Shown here: positions 1 through 56,664 of the stretch, in pieces
Numbering within the stretch: position 1 is the stretch's first letter
How the letters are laid out: every line of letters begins with the position of its first letter
Assembly (NCBI RefSeq): GCF_019317285.1
Contig: NZ_CP079218.1
Location: 1,736,001-1,800,000, forward strand
Reading direction: 5' to 3'
Source of the DNA: Pedobacter sp. D749
Lineage (GTDB): Bacteria; Bacteroidota; Bacteroidia; Sphingobacteriales; Sphingobacteriaceae
Length of the DNA stretch: 64,000 bases
Notes under the pieces: model-generated
The model's database searches: none
The model's input: only the letters and a program-made list of their open reading frames with translations
Told to the model about the DNA's origin: nothing
Made by a program: the position numbers and the translations under genes

Positions 1-126
1 CTGATAGGCCATACGCCGTTCGATACCATTTTCCCTTGAGATTGAAACCAAAGGTTTTTCTCTACTTAAGACCTGGCCGATGATAGCCAGTTTAAATTCA
101 AGGCTATATTTAATTTTTCTGCTCAT
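1..126 (-). CDS. IS3-family transposase OrfA, N-terminal part (truncated by window edge)
   Basis: The ATG is at 126 on the minus strand and 42 codons are visible, open to the window edge. The residues match the first 42 of the two complete OrfA copies except for Val instead of Asp at residue 27 and Ala instead of Val at residue 40. This part holds the first helix-turn-helix that recognises the element ends. It is intact as far as it can be seen. Confidence 0.85.
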   Translation of the reverse strand, partial: MSRKIKYSLEFKLAIIGQVLSREKPLVSISRENGIERRMAYQ

Positions 127-169
127 AAAATGCTCCTCTTAAAGTGTCCAACTTTTTGGGGGCAGTCCA
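1..169 (-). mobile_element. IS150-type IS3-family element, orfA-side end (continues off left edge)
   Basis: This is the third copy of the element found complete at 7620-9051 and 51784-53214. It carries the same terminal repeat (TGGACTGCCCCC read inward from 169) and the same start of orfA. By eye it differs from the copy at 53046-53214 at about seven positions, whereas the two complete copies differ from each other only at a few, so it is an older or separate lineage. It ends exactly where an interspersed repeat (170-206) begins. Whether the element is complete cannot be seen. Confidence 0.9.
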
Positions 170-206
170 TCGCTGTGGGCTTTACACTTCAATAAGGTTT
201 ATAAAC
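170..206 (-). repeat. IS-target interspersed repeat, A half (other half beyond the left edge)
   Basis: Read on the minus strand this is AAACCTTATTGAAGTGTAAA followed by GCCCACAGCGA, directly abutting the IS end at 169. The same sequence lies at 7585-7619, also abutting an IS end, and at 7348-7379 in an uninterrupted copy. The IS therefore entered this copy of the repeat at the same point as in the 7.6 kb copy. Confidence 0.8.
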
Positions 207-3678: not shown

Positions 3679-4058
3679 GCGATCATCATTCTAGTTCCTA
3701 CAAGTTAAAAATATTGTTATCAATTGGATTGTATCTACTGCATGGTCACGTATTTTTTATATAATAGACCCTGAAATGAATTACCTTTGGTAGACCGCTA
3801 AAGTTCTGCTATTAATGACAGATTTAAAAAATCGCCGTCATTTCGACTGAAGCGCAGCGAAATGGAGAAATCTTTAACATAGTTCAAAGATTTCTCCACT
3901 ACGGTCGAAATGACGATACTTTGGAGCTGTTTATCTCCTTAAAATCCACTATTATTTATATTGATTTTTACAAAATAAATTATTCACCGTGGTTAGGGCA
4001 AGTGTTTAAAATAACAGCAGAACTTCTCTTTAAGGGTATGCTTTTTCGAACTTAAACT
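3679..4058. other. Non-coding stretch between the small membrane protein and ispD
   Basis: Apart from the hairpin repeat at 3836-3915, I see only AT-rich sequence and no credible coding frame. Confidence 0.6.
3836..3915. repeat. GTCATTTCGAC-family intergenic hairpin repeat
   Basis: The ends CGTCATTTCGAC and GTCGAAATGACG pair perfectly. Inner segments GGAGAAATCTTT and AAAGATTTCTCC also pair, giving an approximately 80-base hairpin with a side bulge (GAAGCGCAGCGAAAT). The same element recurs at 56555-56628 and decayed at 250-322 and 9166-9220. Confidence 0.8.
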
Positions 4059-7347: not shown

Positions 7348-7446
7348 GAATAAACCTTATTGAAGTGGAAGCCCGCAGCATAGCGAGGAATATAACGGAA
7401 AGAAGGACTGGATTCTCCGATGGGATGCTTGCTTTCATTTTCAAAG
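7348..7446 (+). repeat. IS-target interspersed repeat, uninterrupted copy
   Basis: This runs from TAAACCTTATTGAAGTGGAA through GCCCGCAGCATAGCGAGGAA to ATGCTTGCTTTCATTTTCAAA. The two halves match the sequences flanking the IS at 7585-7619 and 9052-9120 and, inverted, at 53215-53251 and 51718-51783. It shows what the target looks like without the insertion. A minus-strand frame at 7328-7516 covers it but has no recognisable protein character. Confidence 0.8.
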
Positions 7447-7584: not shown

Positions 7585-7619
7585 TCATAAACCTTATTGC
7601 AGTGGAAAGCCCACAGCGT
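7585..7619 (+). repeat. IS-target repeat, A half left of the IS
   Basis: AAACCTTATTGCAGTGGAAA and GCCCACAGCGT abut the IS end. The B half continues after the element at 9052. The last three bases CGT and the first three after the IS (CGC) form a near target-site duplication. Confidence 0.8.
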
Positions 7620-7662
7620 TGGACTGCCCCCAAAAAGTTGGACACTTTAAGAGGAGCATTTT

Positions 7663-8181
7663 ATGAGCAGAAAAATTAAGTATAGCCTGGAATTTAAACT
7701 GGCTATCATCGGTCAGGTCTTAAGTAGAGAGAAACCTTTGGATTCAATCTCAAGGGAAAATGGTATCGAACGGCGTATGGTCTATCAGTGGGTACAGTTC
7801 TATAAACGTTTTGGAGAGGCCGGACTAATCCCCCAGTCGACAGTCTATTCATTGGAAAACAAACTTGAGGTTATCCGTTACTTTATCTCCAATAAGGTAT
7901 CTTTGAGGGAGGCATGCCTTCAATTTAACATCAGATGTAACAGTGTCCTATCAAATTGGTTAAGGATATACGAATCTGCTGGCGCCGAGGGGCTGTCTGA
8001 AACAACAAGGAAAAAACATCATCCCATGAATCCAAAGATTCCGAAAAAAGCACCTTCCCTCCTGACAGATCATGAACAGGTCCTGGAAGAAAACAATCGT
8101 TTACGTGCGGAGGTCGCGTTTTTAAAAAAGTTACGGGCCTTAATCCAGAAAGAAGAATCAAAGAAAAACAAAAAGCGCTGA
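7663..8181 (+). CDS. IS3-family transposase OrfA
   Basis: This 172-residue DNA-binding protein has two helix-turn-helix modules (about 5-55 and 64-115) and a C-terminal leucine-zipper-like coiled coil (about 135-160, HEQVLEENNRLRAEVAFLKKL). It recognises the element ends, and alone it usually acts as an inhibitor. At codons 155-156 the frame passes over A_AAA_AAG (8124-8130), where a -1 shift would make the OrfAB fusion. It differs from the copy at 52653-53171 at a few residues (Glu/Lys, Asn/Lys, Leu/Ile). Confidence 0.93.
   Translation: MSRKIKYSLEFKLAIIGQVLSREKPLDSISRENGIERRMVYQWVQFYKRFGEAGLIPQSTVYSLENKLEVIRYFISNKVSLREACLQFNIRCNSVLSNWLRIYESAGAEGLSETTRKKHHPMNPKIPKKAPSLLTDHEQVLEENNRLRAEVAFLKKLRALIQKEESKKNKKR
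8124..8130 (+). promoter_or_regulatory. -1 programmed frameshift heptamer A_AAA_AAG
   Basis: The heptamer is in the correct phase of orfA (codons AAA at 8125 and AAG at 8128). After slipping back one base the frame is open through VTGLNPERRIKEKQKALIIH and into orfB, with no stop. This is the standard IS3-family mechanism for the active OrfAB transposase. Confidence 0.85.
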
Positions 8182-8201
8182 TCATTCACGGATTAAGGAA
8201 T

Positions 8202-9020
8202 ATGTTTGACCTATCAGTGCTTTTAGGAGTGGCCGGTATGGCGCGGAGTTCATTTTATTACTGTATAAAATGCAGTGGTACAGACGACAAGTATGGAGTG
8301 GTCAGGAACCGCCTGAATGCGCTCTACAAGCAGCATAAAGGCAGATATGGCTATAGGCGGATGCTGCTCCAGCTAAAAAAGGAAGGGCACACCATCAACC
8401 ATAAGACAGTATTGAGGCTTACTGGAGAGATGGGCCTGAAAAGTGCCGTCAGGCTTAAGAGATACAGGTCGTATAAAGCAGAAGAGGGCAAAACAGTCCC
8501 CAATATACTCAATAGGGAGTTTAATGTTGACAGGCCGTTTGAAAAATGGGCAACCGATGTCACAGAATTCAATGTAACTGGCAAGAAACTGTATCTCTCT
8601 ACCATAATTGATATGTTCAATGGAGAGATTATAAGTTATTCGCAATCCCTAAGGCCGGACTTCGAGCAGGTCACCGATATGCTGGACCGGGCATTGAAAA
8701 AAAAACCAGGTAATGCCAAACTCATACTGCATTCCGACCAGGGTTGGCAATACAAGATGAAGAGTTATCAGGTTATCCTGCACAAGAATGGAATTACACA
8801 GAGCATGTCCAGAAAGGGCAACTGCCTGGATAATGCTGTAATGGAAAACTTTTTTGGTACGCTAAAGTCTGAGATGTTCTACCGCAAAAAATACCTGTCG
8901 GTGGAGGAGCTGAAGGGTGATGTTGATGAGTATATTAGTTATTATAACAATAAAAGGATAAGATTGAACTTAAATGGAATGAGCCCGGTTGAATACCGGA
9001 CACAAGTCTTAAATAATTAA
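8202..9020 (+). CDS. IS3-family transposase OrfB (DDE integrase domain)
   Basis: The 272-residue catalytic part is in the -1 frame relative to orfA. The HTH_21-like segment YKQHKGRYGYRRM is followed by the rve integrase core: first Asp in WATDVTEF, second in HSDQGWQY, and the catalytic Glu in NAVMENFFGTLKSE, with the YNNKRIRLNL signature near the end. It is probably translated mainly as an OrfAB fusion. Its protein sequence is identical to the copy at 51814-52632, indicating recent transposition or gene conversion. Confidence 0.95.
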   Translation: MFDLSVLLGVAGMARSSFYYCIKCSGTDDKYGVVRNRLNALYKQHKGRYGYRRMLLQLKKEGHTINHKTVLRLTGEMGLKSAVRLKRYRSYKAEEGKTVPNILNREFNVDRPFEKWATDVTEFNVTGKKLYLSTIIDMFNGEIISYSQSLRPDFEQVTDMLDRALKKKPGNAKLILHSDQGWQYKMKSYQVILHKNGITQSMSRKGNCLDNAVMENFFGTLKSEMFYRKKYLSVEELKGDVDEYISYYNNKRIRLNLNGMSPVEYRTQVLNN

Positions 9021-9051
9021 TAAGTTTGTCCAACTTTTTGGGGGCAGTCCA

Positions 9052-9120
9052 CGCAGCGAGGACTTGCAACGGAAAGAAGGGCTGAAACCTCCGATGAAAT
9101 GCTGGCTTTCATTTTCAAAT
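9052..9120 (+). repeat. IS-target repeat, B half right of the IS
   Basis: CGCAGCGAGGACTTGCAACG, GAAAGAAGGGCTGAAACC and ATGCTGGCTTTCATTTTCAAA match the second half of the intact copy at 7348-7446. Confidence 0.8.
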
Positions 9121-9165: not shown

Positions 9166-9220
9166 ATTTGTTGTTATAGATCTCTCTACTACGCTGTGCT
9201 CCTGTCGAGATGACGGCCTG
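9166..9220. repeat. Partial GTCATTTCGAC-family repeat
   Basis: GATCTCTCTACTACGCTGTG and CTGTCGAGATGACGG correspond to one arm of the hairpin at 56555-56628. The opposite arm is missing or decayed. No coding signal is seen in 9121-9260. Confidence 0.5.
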
Positions 9221-51717: not shown

Positions 51718-51783
51718 TTTGGAAATGAGCGGCTGTAATACTTCGGATTTGCAGCCCTGCTATCGTTCCAAGTCCTCACGAGT
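51718..51783 (-). repeat. IS-target repeat, B half left of the second complete IS
   Basis: Read on the minus strand: CGTGAGGACTTGGAACGATA, then GCAGGGCTGCAAATCCGAAG and a final TTTCCAAA. It matches the B half at 9052-9120, more diverged in its distal part. The base triplet AGT (51781-51783) is duplicated after the IS at 53215-53217. Confidence 0.75.
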
Positions 51784-51813
51784 TGGACTGCCCCAAAAAG
51801 TTGGACAAACTTA

Positions 51814-52632
51814 TTAATTATTTAAGACTTGTGTCCGGTATTCAACTGGACTCATTCCATTTAAGTTCAATCTTATCCTTTTATTGTTATAATAACTAAT
51901 ATACTCATCAACATCACCCTTCAGCTCCTCCACCGACAGGTATTTTTTGCGGTAGAACATCTCAGACTTTAGCGTACCAAAAAAGTTTTCCATTACAGCA
52001 TTATCCAGGCAGTTGCCCTTTCTGGACATGCTCTGTGTAATTCCATTCTTGTGCAGGATAACCTGATAACTCTTCATCTTGTATTGCCAACCCTGGTCGG
52101 AATGCAGTATGAGTTTGGCATTACCTGGTTTTTTTTTCAATGCCCGGTCCAGCATATCGGTGACCTGCTCGAAGTCCGGCCTTAGGGATTGCGAATAACT
52201 TATAATCTCTCCATTGAACATATCAATTATGGTAGAGAGATACAGTTTCTTGCCAGTTACATTGAATTCTGTGACATCGGTTGCCCATTTTTCAAACGGC
52301 CTGTCAACATTAAACTCCCTATTGAGTATATTGGGGACTGTTTTGCCCTCTTCTGCTTTATACGACCTGTATCTCTTAAGCCTGACGGCACTTTTCAGGC
52401 CCATCTCTCCAGTAAGCCTCAATACTGTCTTATGGTTGATGGTGTGCCCTTCCTTTTTTAGCTGGAGCAGCATCCGCCTATAGCCATATCTGCCTTTATG
52501 CTGCTTGTAGAGCGCATTCAGGCGGTTCCTGACCACTCCATACTTGTCGTCTGTACCACTGCATTTTATACAGTAATAAAATGAACTCCGCGCCATACCG
52601 GCCACTCCTAAAAGCACTGACAGGTCAAACAT
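51814..52632 (-). CDS. IS3-family transposase OrfB (DDE integrase domain)
   Basis: 272 residues, identical to the OrfB at 8202-9020, with the same Asp, Asp and Glu motifs (WATDVTEF, HSDQGWQY, VMENFFGTL). It is probably made as an OrfAB fusion through the -1 slip at 52704-52710. Confidence 0.95.
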   Translation of the reverse strand: MFDLSVLLGVAGMARSSFYYCIKCSGTDDKYGVVRNRLNALYKQHKGRYGYRRMLLQLKKEGHTINHKTVLRLTGEMGLKSAVRLKRYRSYKAEEGKTVPNILNREFNVDRPFEKWATDVTEFNVTGKKLYLSTIIDMFNGEIISYSQSLRPDFEQVTDMLDRALKKKPGNAKLILHSDQGWQYKMKSYQVILHKNGITQSMSRKGNCLDNAVMENFFGTLKSEMFYRKKYLSVEELKGDVDEYISYYNNKRIRLNLNGMSPVEYRTQVLNN

Positions 52633-52652
52633 ATTCCTTAATCCGTGAATGA

Positions 52653-53171
52653 TCAGCGCTTTTTGTTTTTCTTTGATTCTTCTTTCTGGATTAAGGCCCG
52701 TAACTTTTTTAAAAACGCGACCTCCGCACGTAAACGATTGTTTTCTTCCAGGACCTGTTCATGATCTGTCAGGATGGAAGGTGCTTTTTTCGGAATCTTT
52801 GGCTTCATGGGATGATGTTTTTTCCTTGTTGTTTCAGACAGCCCCTCGGCGCCAGCAGATTCGTATATCCTTAACCAATTTGATAGGACACTGTTACATC
52901 TGATGTTAAATTGAAGGCATGCCTCCCTCAAAGATACCTTATTGGAGATAAAGTAACGGATAACCTCAAGTTTGTTTTCCAATGAATAGACTGTCGACTG
53001 GGGGATTAGTCCGGCCTCGCCAAAACGTTTATAGAACTGTACCCACTGATAGACCATACGCCGTTCGATACCATTTTTCCTTGAGATTGAATCCAAAGGT
53101 TTCTCTCTACTTAAGACCTGACCGATGATAGCCAGTTTAAATTCCAGGCTATACTTAATTTTTCTGCTCAT
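52653..53171 (-). CDS. IS3-family transposase OrfA
   Basis: 172 residues with two helix-turn-helix modules and a C-terminal coiled coil. It differs from the copy at 7663-8181 by Lys for Glu in SISRKNG, Lys for Asn in MKPK and Ile for Leu in APSIL. All are substitutions that leave the frame intact. Confidence 0.93.
   Translation of the reverse strand: MSRKIKYSLEFKLAIIGQVLSREKPLDSISRKNGIERRMVYQWVQFYKRFGEAGLIPQSTVYSLENKLEVIRYFISNKVSLREACLQFNIRCNSVLSNWLRIYESAGAEGLSETTRKKHHPMKPKIPKKAPSILTDHEQVLEENNRLRAEVAFLKKLRALIQKEESKKNKKR
52704..52710 (-). promoter_or_regulatory. -1 programmed frameshift heptamer A_AAA_AAG
   Basis: The minus-strand counterpart of 8124-8130; it is in phase with orfA codons and leads into an open -1 frame to orfB. 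Confidence 0.85.
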
Positions 53172-53214
53172 AAAATGCTCCTCTTAAAGTGTCCAACTTT
53201 TTGGGGGCAGTCCA

Positions 53215-53251
53215 AGTTCCTCGCTCCGGGCTTTCCACTTTATCAGGTTTA
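53215..53251 (-). repeat. IS-target repeat, A half right of the second complete IS
   Basis: Read on the minus strand: AAACCTGATAAAGTGGAAAG, then CCCGGAGCGAGGAACT, matching the A half at 7348-7379. The insertion point is shifted about six bases compared with the other two copies. Confidence 0.75.
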
Positions 53252-53290
53252 TTTAACCTAAAGCAGTGGTTGTTAGGGGTGAACTAAAAT

Positions 53291-56511: not shown

Positions 56512-56554
56512 GCTACTGTGAGCTTTAAAATAGCGATAATATGTTACGAAAGCT

Positions 56555-56628
56555 CGTCATTTCGACCGCAGTGGAGAAATCTGTCTTGATAGATCTCTCC
56601 ATTTCGCTACGCTTCAGTCGAGATGACG
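56555..56628. repeat. GTCATTTCGAC-family intergenic hairpin repeat
   Basis: CGTCATTTCGACCGCAGTGG at the left and GTCGAGATGACG at the right, with GAGAAATCTGTCTTGATAGATCTCTC as the internal hairpin. It is the same family as 3836-3915. Confidence 0.8.
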
Positions 56629-56664
56629 ATTATCTATTAAAAACGAGCGCAACCATCGCTAAAA

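Follow-up and report, generated by a model that had tools for sequence, protein, structure and literature searches.

The window analysed here, a 64,000-nucleotide stretch of the genome of Pedobacter sp. D749 (positions 1,736,001 to 1,800,000 of contig NZ_CP079218.1; G000:C1:1736001-1800000 in our notation, in which G000 is the source genome and L numbers are individual loci read), carries three copies, A, B and C, of an insertion sequence (IS) of the IS3 family. This element probably inserts at or near the apices of intergenic hairpins, which in its clade are mostly terminator-like, and the lineage in the source genome prefers a repeat that resembles the repetitive extragenic palindromes (REP). 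Targeting of the hairpin apex is the likely rule, because related copies mostly sit at the stem axes of terminator-like hairpins.

The initial annotation had claimed that all three window copies interrupt one interspersed repeat in one orientation, and reading the junctions confirmed this for the window, where the same repeat is interrupted by copies A (L001), B (L002) and C (L006) with the orfA end facing its AAAGCCC half each time; copy C runs past the left edge, and only the AAAGCCC half of its repeat is visible in the window. Genome-wide the orientation claim did not hold: G000 carries six full copies, five of them in the repeat, and L003 and L004 lie opposite to L001, L002 and L006 (3 vs 2), which rejects a same-orientation rule. 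The sixth copy, L005, occupies the loop of the terminator-like hairpin AAAAGCCACAGAATTTCTGTGGCCTT. What stands of the proposed specificity for a chromosomal repeat, by analogy with REP-targeting elements, is a strong preference, since five of the six copies still lie in the repeat rather than elsewhere, with orientation mixed at three against two. The repeat as the only target is rejected by L005 and by the sites of relatives in terminator-like hairpins. All six copies are intergenic, and copies A and B, both with intact open reading frames (ORFs), each sit between convergent ORFs.

At all five repeat sites in G000 the target duplication lies 5 nt from GGACTT, and its distance to AAAGCCC is either 4 or 10 nt. 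This refines the annotated pattern of two identical junctions with a third about six bases on, which vanishes when measured from GGACTT. Because the 5-nt distance is fixed and both orientations occur, the site amounts to one base set from one arm, with orientation free. Exact 3-bp duplications flank L002 (ACT, at 51784-53214), L003 (CGT) and L004 (GCG), the last two lying beyond the window, and imperfect ones flank copy A (CGT/CGC, at 7620) and copy C (CGA/CGC). Both imperfect duplications (7617-7619/9052-9054, and 170-172/the other L006 flank) differ at the base adjoining the orfA end.

The chance of at least five of six copies falling in the repeat is P 1e-16 by length, assuming approximately 40 units of 65 bp, and P 2e-11 to 7e-6 against hairpins of similar strength, with 30-60 units and a hairpin number extrapolated from the window. 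L001 and L006, which lie ~7.5 kb apart, may not be independent because the sequences to the right of them agree at 78% over a length of 167 nt, and counting them as one event weakens these values. Spread of the copies together with their repeat by duplication was rejected, as the flanks beyond the repeat are unlike except in this pair.

The interrupted repeat is REP-like: a short extragenic palindrome, present in many copies, with conserved pairing. As a search pattern, one half of it occurs in 62 of 145 Pedobacter genomes (the reversed control gave 5 matches in 2 genomes among the matches listed) and 17 times in G000, and the other half gave 42 matches in G000 vs 12 for its reversed control. 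In 45 aligned units of the 47 found (the long-loop units L233:1446-1531 and L244 were excluded), a nested hairpin with CCTG/CAGG outside AAGTCC/GGGCTT has 96% of its cells paired, and sliding the partners drops pairing to 66% or less. Three pairs are changed on both sides, a level reached by 14 of 500 shuffles; the covariation score was reached by none of the 500, and the number of further pair types by 178. Two results tell against this fold. Five of the six inner-helix pairs are invariant across the 45 units, so that covariation supports mainly the outer helix and hardly tests the inner one, and RNAalifold chose a different pairing, in which no pair is changed on both sides. Given this disagreement, and the two-sided changes in the nested structure, the fold is supported and not settled. 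The annotation's placement of the junction within an imperfect palindrome agrees with this REP-like pairing, which includes some compensatory changes. Read by hand, the insertion falls in the apical part of the repeat, mid-loop in its short loop form and off-centre in the long form.

No link between the repeat and a nearby REP-associated tyrosine transposase was seen: the repeat core was found within 1.5 kb on either side of none of the six Y1_Tnp genes of G000, by the same expression that finds 26 of 30 repeat loci, though an unlinked transposase may exist. A separate palindromic repeat with TGTCATGCTGAGGCACGAAGCATCTG, in the left flank of L005 (query 1278-1386), has many matches, among those listed, in most of the 12 Pedobacter genomes that were also searched for empty sites.

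The broader habit emerged from relatives. Of 145 Pedobacter genomes, 69 contain the IS left end (the control gave 0 among the matches listed); with one mismatch allowed, 104 of 399 genomes across the family contain it, covering 8 of 25 genera including Pedobacter. From among the left-end matches listed, 100 stretches were fetched, passing over contig-edge, 2-mismatch and some duplicate matches, and 30 other loci were added. Of 145 distinct left ends sorted, 36 gave readings that include both ends, 34 are short forms, 55 lack a recognised right end and 20 are cut off by contig ends; three G127 matches with 0-1 mismatch and one G107 edge match were left out of these counts. The scored set of 31 copies derives from the 36 both-end readings after removal of 4 reverse readings of symmetric elements and 1 lacking a right flank. 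It includes the shortened copies L021 and L035 and leaves outside L027 and L030, which the left-end pattern missed. Outside the repeat lie 26 of the 31 sites, namely L005 and 25 from other genomes.

At these 26 sites the stem around the insertion beats dinucleotide shuffles in 24 cases at the 0.05 level, 19 of which also pass 0.01. Among stems within 30 nt, the best one has its axis no more than 3.5 nt from the insertion in 22 of 26, where 3.0 would be expected if positions were uniform, and no more than 7 nt away in 25. Over the whole scored set, the insertion-point stem was compared with 3000 positions drawn at random from the window, which is mostly coding, and not from the relatives; it exceeds 95% of them in 23 of 31 copies and 99% in 20. 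Duplications measure 3 bp in 23 of the 31 copies and 4 bp in 3, and two more G127 copies outside the counts (L343 and L344) likewise have strong stems and 3-bp duplications.

The label 'terminator' rests on the stem, on A/T tracts judged by eye and on gene ends. By eye, most non-repeat sites have A-rich and T-rich arms as in intrinsic terminators, and of the 22 non-repeat copies for which one flank or both could be read for at least 500 nt, 11 have the stop of an approaching frame of at least 100 codons no more than 50 nt away, a count made without a control. A consensus terminator scan of 20 kb did no better than chance (14 found vs 14.6 expected in shuffles) and was unused. Of 30 loci taken from the family-level search, 16 belong to four other genera, and all 16 were read by eye; about 12 of their left flanks resemble terminator arms, and the one locus with both ends, L315, has a perfect stem. 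The IS ends of G107 share 95-97% identity with those of G000 over ~200 nt, and all four that were read (L024, L172, L243, L346) lie in the repeat, two of them at one and the same base and the pair L172/L243 ~3 nt away.

Several observations count against insertion at hairpin apices as the rule. Against a control drawn from the flanks of the same copies, the 95% level (21.0) is exceeded by 22 of 31 insertion-point stems and the 99% level (37.5) by only 5. Four of the five repeat sites are not above chance by the ungapped stem measure, L019 and L132 lack a significant stem, as do L027 (p 0.14) and L030 (p 0.06), and 5 of the 31 copies, two of them in the window, lack an exact duplication. Where the repeat has its long form, the insertion misses the middle of the loop yet keeps a constant distance to one arm, which points to sequence reading. 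Moreover, the evidence consists of insertion positions only, and the positions seen are those left after selection.

Targeting by sequence, in which a short motif within the repeat (the GAGGACTT side) is what the transposase recognises and the palindrome is incidental, draws on two of these facts, the constant 5 nt to GGACTT at five of five sites while the other side of the loop varies, and the poor ungapped stems at four of five. We consider it unlikely, since L005 and the other 25 non-repeat sites carry no such motif by eye, yet 22 of the 26 insertions lie at stem centres, and since the duplications vary from GCG to TTT. A host factor (gyrase or integration host factor at REP, paused RNA polymerase at terminators) might instead recruit the transposase, with the hairpin only marking the place; the closeness of 11 of 22 non-repeat copies to a frame stop would fit, but one factor would have to serve both repeats and terminators and also position the insertion at the apex, and we judge this equally improbable. 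Wide insertion with retention only in harmless intergenic places, which the six intergenic G000 copies and the tolerance of intergenic hairpins might suggest, is very improbable, because tolerance predicts neither position at the stem axis nor a single base in the repeat.

Beyond the positions, duplications, stems and empty sites that were observed directly, insertion at hairpin apices could work as follows. The transposase would recognise an extruded hairpin, either a cruciform or a single-stranded form, rather than sequence alone, and the repeat-using lineage would add sequence reading to this recognition. The non-repeat target hairpins may be working terminators, from whose use that of the repeat may be derived, and the benefit would be an address that seldom damages genes.

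An orfB tree built by a quick method unites the six G000 copies with high support (100) and places them next to elements of G041, G042 and G112, the two together again supported at 100; the transposases of the two groups are 77-79% identical. Within G000 there are two isoforms, L001/L002 vs L003-L006, whose orfB are 92% identical. L018 (G112) and L021 (G091; same end type, outside the tree) sit in strong stems, the stem of L019 (G042) is not significant, and L020 (G041) has one arm only. The repeat pattern itself matches in these genomes, 14 times in G041, 5 in G042, 13 in G112 and 3 in G091. With thin sampling, the simplest reading is that preference shifted from terminators to the repeat in the G000 lineage.

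Many relatives also carry a hairpin of their own at the left end. A second arm, GGGGGC with one mismatch allowed, is present in 126 of the 142 left ends with enough sequence, and 97 of these 126 also have at least five T in the next eight bases. Twelve distinct left-end types fold at -16 to -24 kcal/mol vs -7.5 for the window lineage, in which the second arm is absent from all eight ends checked for it (L001-L006, L024, L172); G000 copies carry AAGAGGAG in its place. Among left ends without a recognised right end (L099, L101, L111, L125, L127, L157, L159, L180 and others), the hairpin and T-run occupy, by eye, the position of a terminator 3' arm, as if replacing the terminator.

Decay seems to have reduced some copies to hairpin scars of 43 bp, which lie within terminator-like stems. 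Two outer arms are retained in 24 short forms of 42-43 bp (among them L072, L079, L084, L089, L090, L093, L094, L122, L163, L165, L176 and L182, with L121, whose arms are unlike, added by hand), and their flanks make a stem at 0.05 in 20 of 24 and at 0.01 in 16; a 3-4 bp duplication is found in 8. Deletion between the inner and the terminal GGGGGCA would generate such 43-bp forms. Two of four predicted products were found: L121 (G042) has the form expected from the G068 element, and L081 (G127) and L128 have the one expected from a G127 element. The other two were not found among the sorted short forms. Other short forms are perfect palindromes reaching up to 18 nt into the flanks, so that deletion alone is insufficient as an explanation. 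L084 and L093, which look like one locus in two genomes, have arms that are changed yet still paired. The pairing of scar L121 with full element L134 as one locus was unsupported, their right flanks matching over only 20 bp. A fuller account, which we offer tentatively and rate at somewhat below even chances, would be that a family-wide IS3 clade inserts in terminators, that its left-end hairpin with T-run replaces the terminator it splits, that decay by GGGGGCA deletion leaves 43-bp hairpins within host terminators, and that one lineage lost the hairpin on moving to REP.

Occupied and empty sites, whose comparison the annotation had proposed, could be matched across genomes by searching the joined flanks of L001-L005 in 12 chosen genomes, with orthology judged by flank similarity rather than synteny. 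Likely orthologous sites in other Pedobacter genomes are empty for three G000 copies: the hairpin of L005 has no insertion in G003 (96%), G006 and G112 (small differences), the site of L003 has none in G067 and G121, and that of L002 has none in G003, G041 and G068. At the L002 site the loop bases are ACTCGT in G000 vs the reverse complement ACGAGT in the latter three (L295, L297, L347). The L001 site in G003 (L293; 97%) reads CACAGCGC-TGGACT-TGCAACGG, and the CACAGCGCTGGACTTGC there is a possible scar, of the kind expected if an IS had been lost by way of the 5-bp microhomology GGACT. No clear empty site for L004 or L006 was seen among the genomes read.

Membership of the element in the IS3 family, as annotated, follows from the type of its transposase and from its ends with duplication; the annotated placement in the IS150 subgroup is putative. 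The orfB product matches NCBIfam NF033516 (transpos_IS3) at 319 bits against a cut-off of 160, contains HTH_21, rve and rve_2 domains, and has 35 residues between its second D and E by hand count. In the nucleotide sequence, the frame of orfB is -1 relative to orfA and stays open across their junction, and C AAA AAG occurs shortly before orfA ends, so that -1 frameshifting, as in the IS3 family, may join the two. The ends, TGGACTGCC...GGCAGTCCA, are terminal inverted repeats of the TG...CA form accompanied by a short duplication, which are the defining traits of the IS3 family. Coordinates of the window features are collected in the table. A further interspersed repeat family, of the AGATTTCTCCA...CGAAATGACG type, occurs in both orientations at 3823-3873, 3888-3935, 9166-9215 and 56535-56641 of the window.

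Table. IS copies and repeat segments in the window (window coordinates)
Feature	Position	Strand	Remarks
IS copy A (L001)	7620..9051	+	1432 bp, ends TGGACTGCCCCC...GGGGGCAGTCCA; from sequence, ends and length by script
orfA of copy A	7663..8181	+	172 aa, helix-turn-helix protein (HTH_28, HTH_Tnp_1)
orfB of copy A	8202..9020	+	272 aa, HTH_21 + rve, IS3 family transposase, DD(35)E spacing
AAAGCCC half of repeat split by copy A	7589..7619	+	
GGACTT half of repeat split by copy A	9052..9116	+	duplication CGC here vs CGT on left
Empty, diverged repeat copy	7348..7446	+	
IS copy B (L002)	51784..53214	-	1431 bp; ORFs 52653-53171 and 51814-52632
GGACTT half of repeat split by copy B	51718..51783	-	AGT (repeat strand: ACT) at 51781-51783
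AAAGCCC half of repeat split by copy B	53215..53252	-	AGT at 53215-53217
IS copy C (L006), left end	1..169	-	full copy = G000:C1:1734738-1736168 by alignment
AAAGCCC half of repeat split by copy C	170..206	-	

These observations suggest that a broader hairpin-apex habit can give rise to REP-specific transposition, which few elements are known to show, and that hairpin targeting may explain spread without breaking genes. Two close lineages with different preferences, at 77-79% transposase identity, could be used to map the deciding residues. If the left-end hairpins and the 43-bp scars terminate transcription, they would offer a route by which mobile elements rebuild host transcription stops. 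What is new here is the clade that uses terminators, together with the hairpin at its left end and the scars; a literature search of partial coverage, which leaves absence unproven, found no report of terminator-targeting IS3 elements in Pedobacter or of such scars.

Among known systems, group IIC introns insert at the hairpins of intrinsic terminators, as the present clade probably does; they are RNA-based retroelements, unlike the DDE transposase described here. IS1272 of Staphylococcus aureus targets inverted repeats without a common sequence, and a cruciform target has been proposed (PMC5678879). IS1272 replaces the stem-loop and leaves no duplication, whereas the present clade splits the stem, and 26 of 31 copies are flanked by a duplication of 3-4 bp. 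Closer parallels exist within the IS3 family. In enterobacteria, IS1397 and ISKpn1 insert in REP palindromes, a specificity ascribed to their transposases (PMC1525189); REP insertion is common to them and the G000 element, and terminator use goes unmentioned in the part of the source consulted. In Pseudomonas syringae, all five copies of ISPsy8 break a REP, on both strands, at one point on the symmetry axis of a predicted hairpin, with a 3-bp duplication (PMC1525189). According to the same partial source, ISPsy8 shares with the G000 element the orfA/orfB organization, the splitting of REP at one point and the 3-bp duplication, and differs in its repeat, in its host phylum and in that no terminator-using relatives are reported for it there. 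Splitting of REP at one base by most copies is the trait of such elements, and in G000 five of six copies do so, each 5 nt from GGACTT; on the evidence of its insertion sites, the G000 element joins ISPsy8, IS1397 and ISKpn1 among the known REP-targeting IS3 elements.
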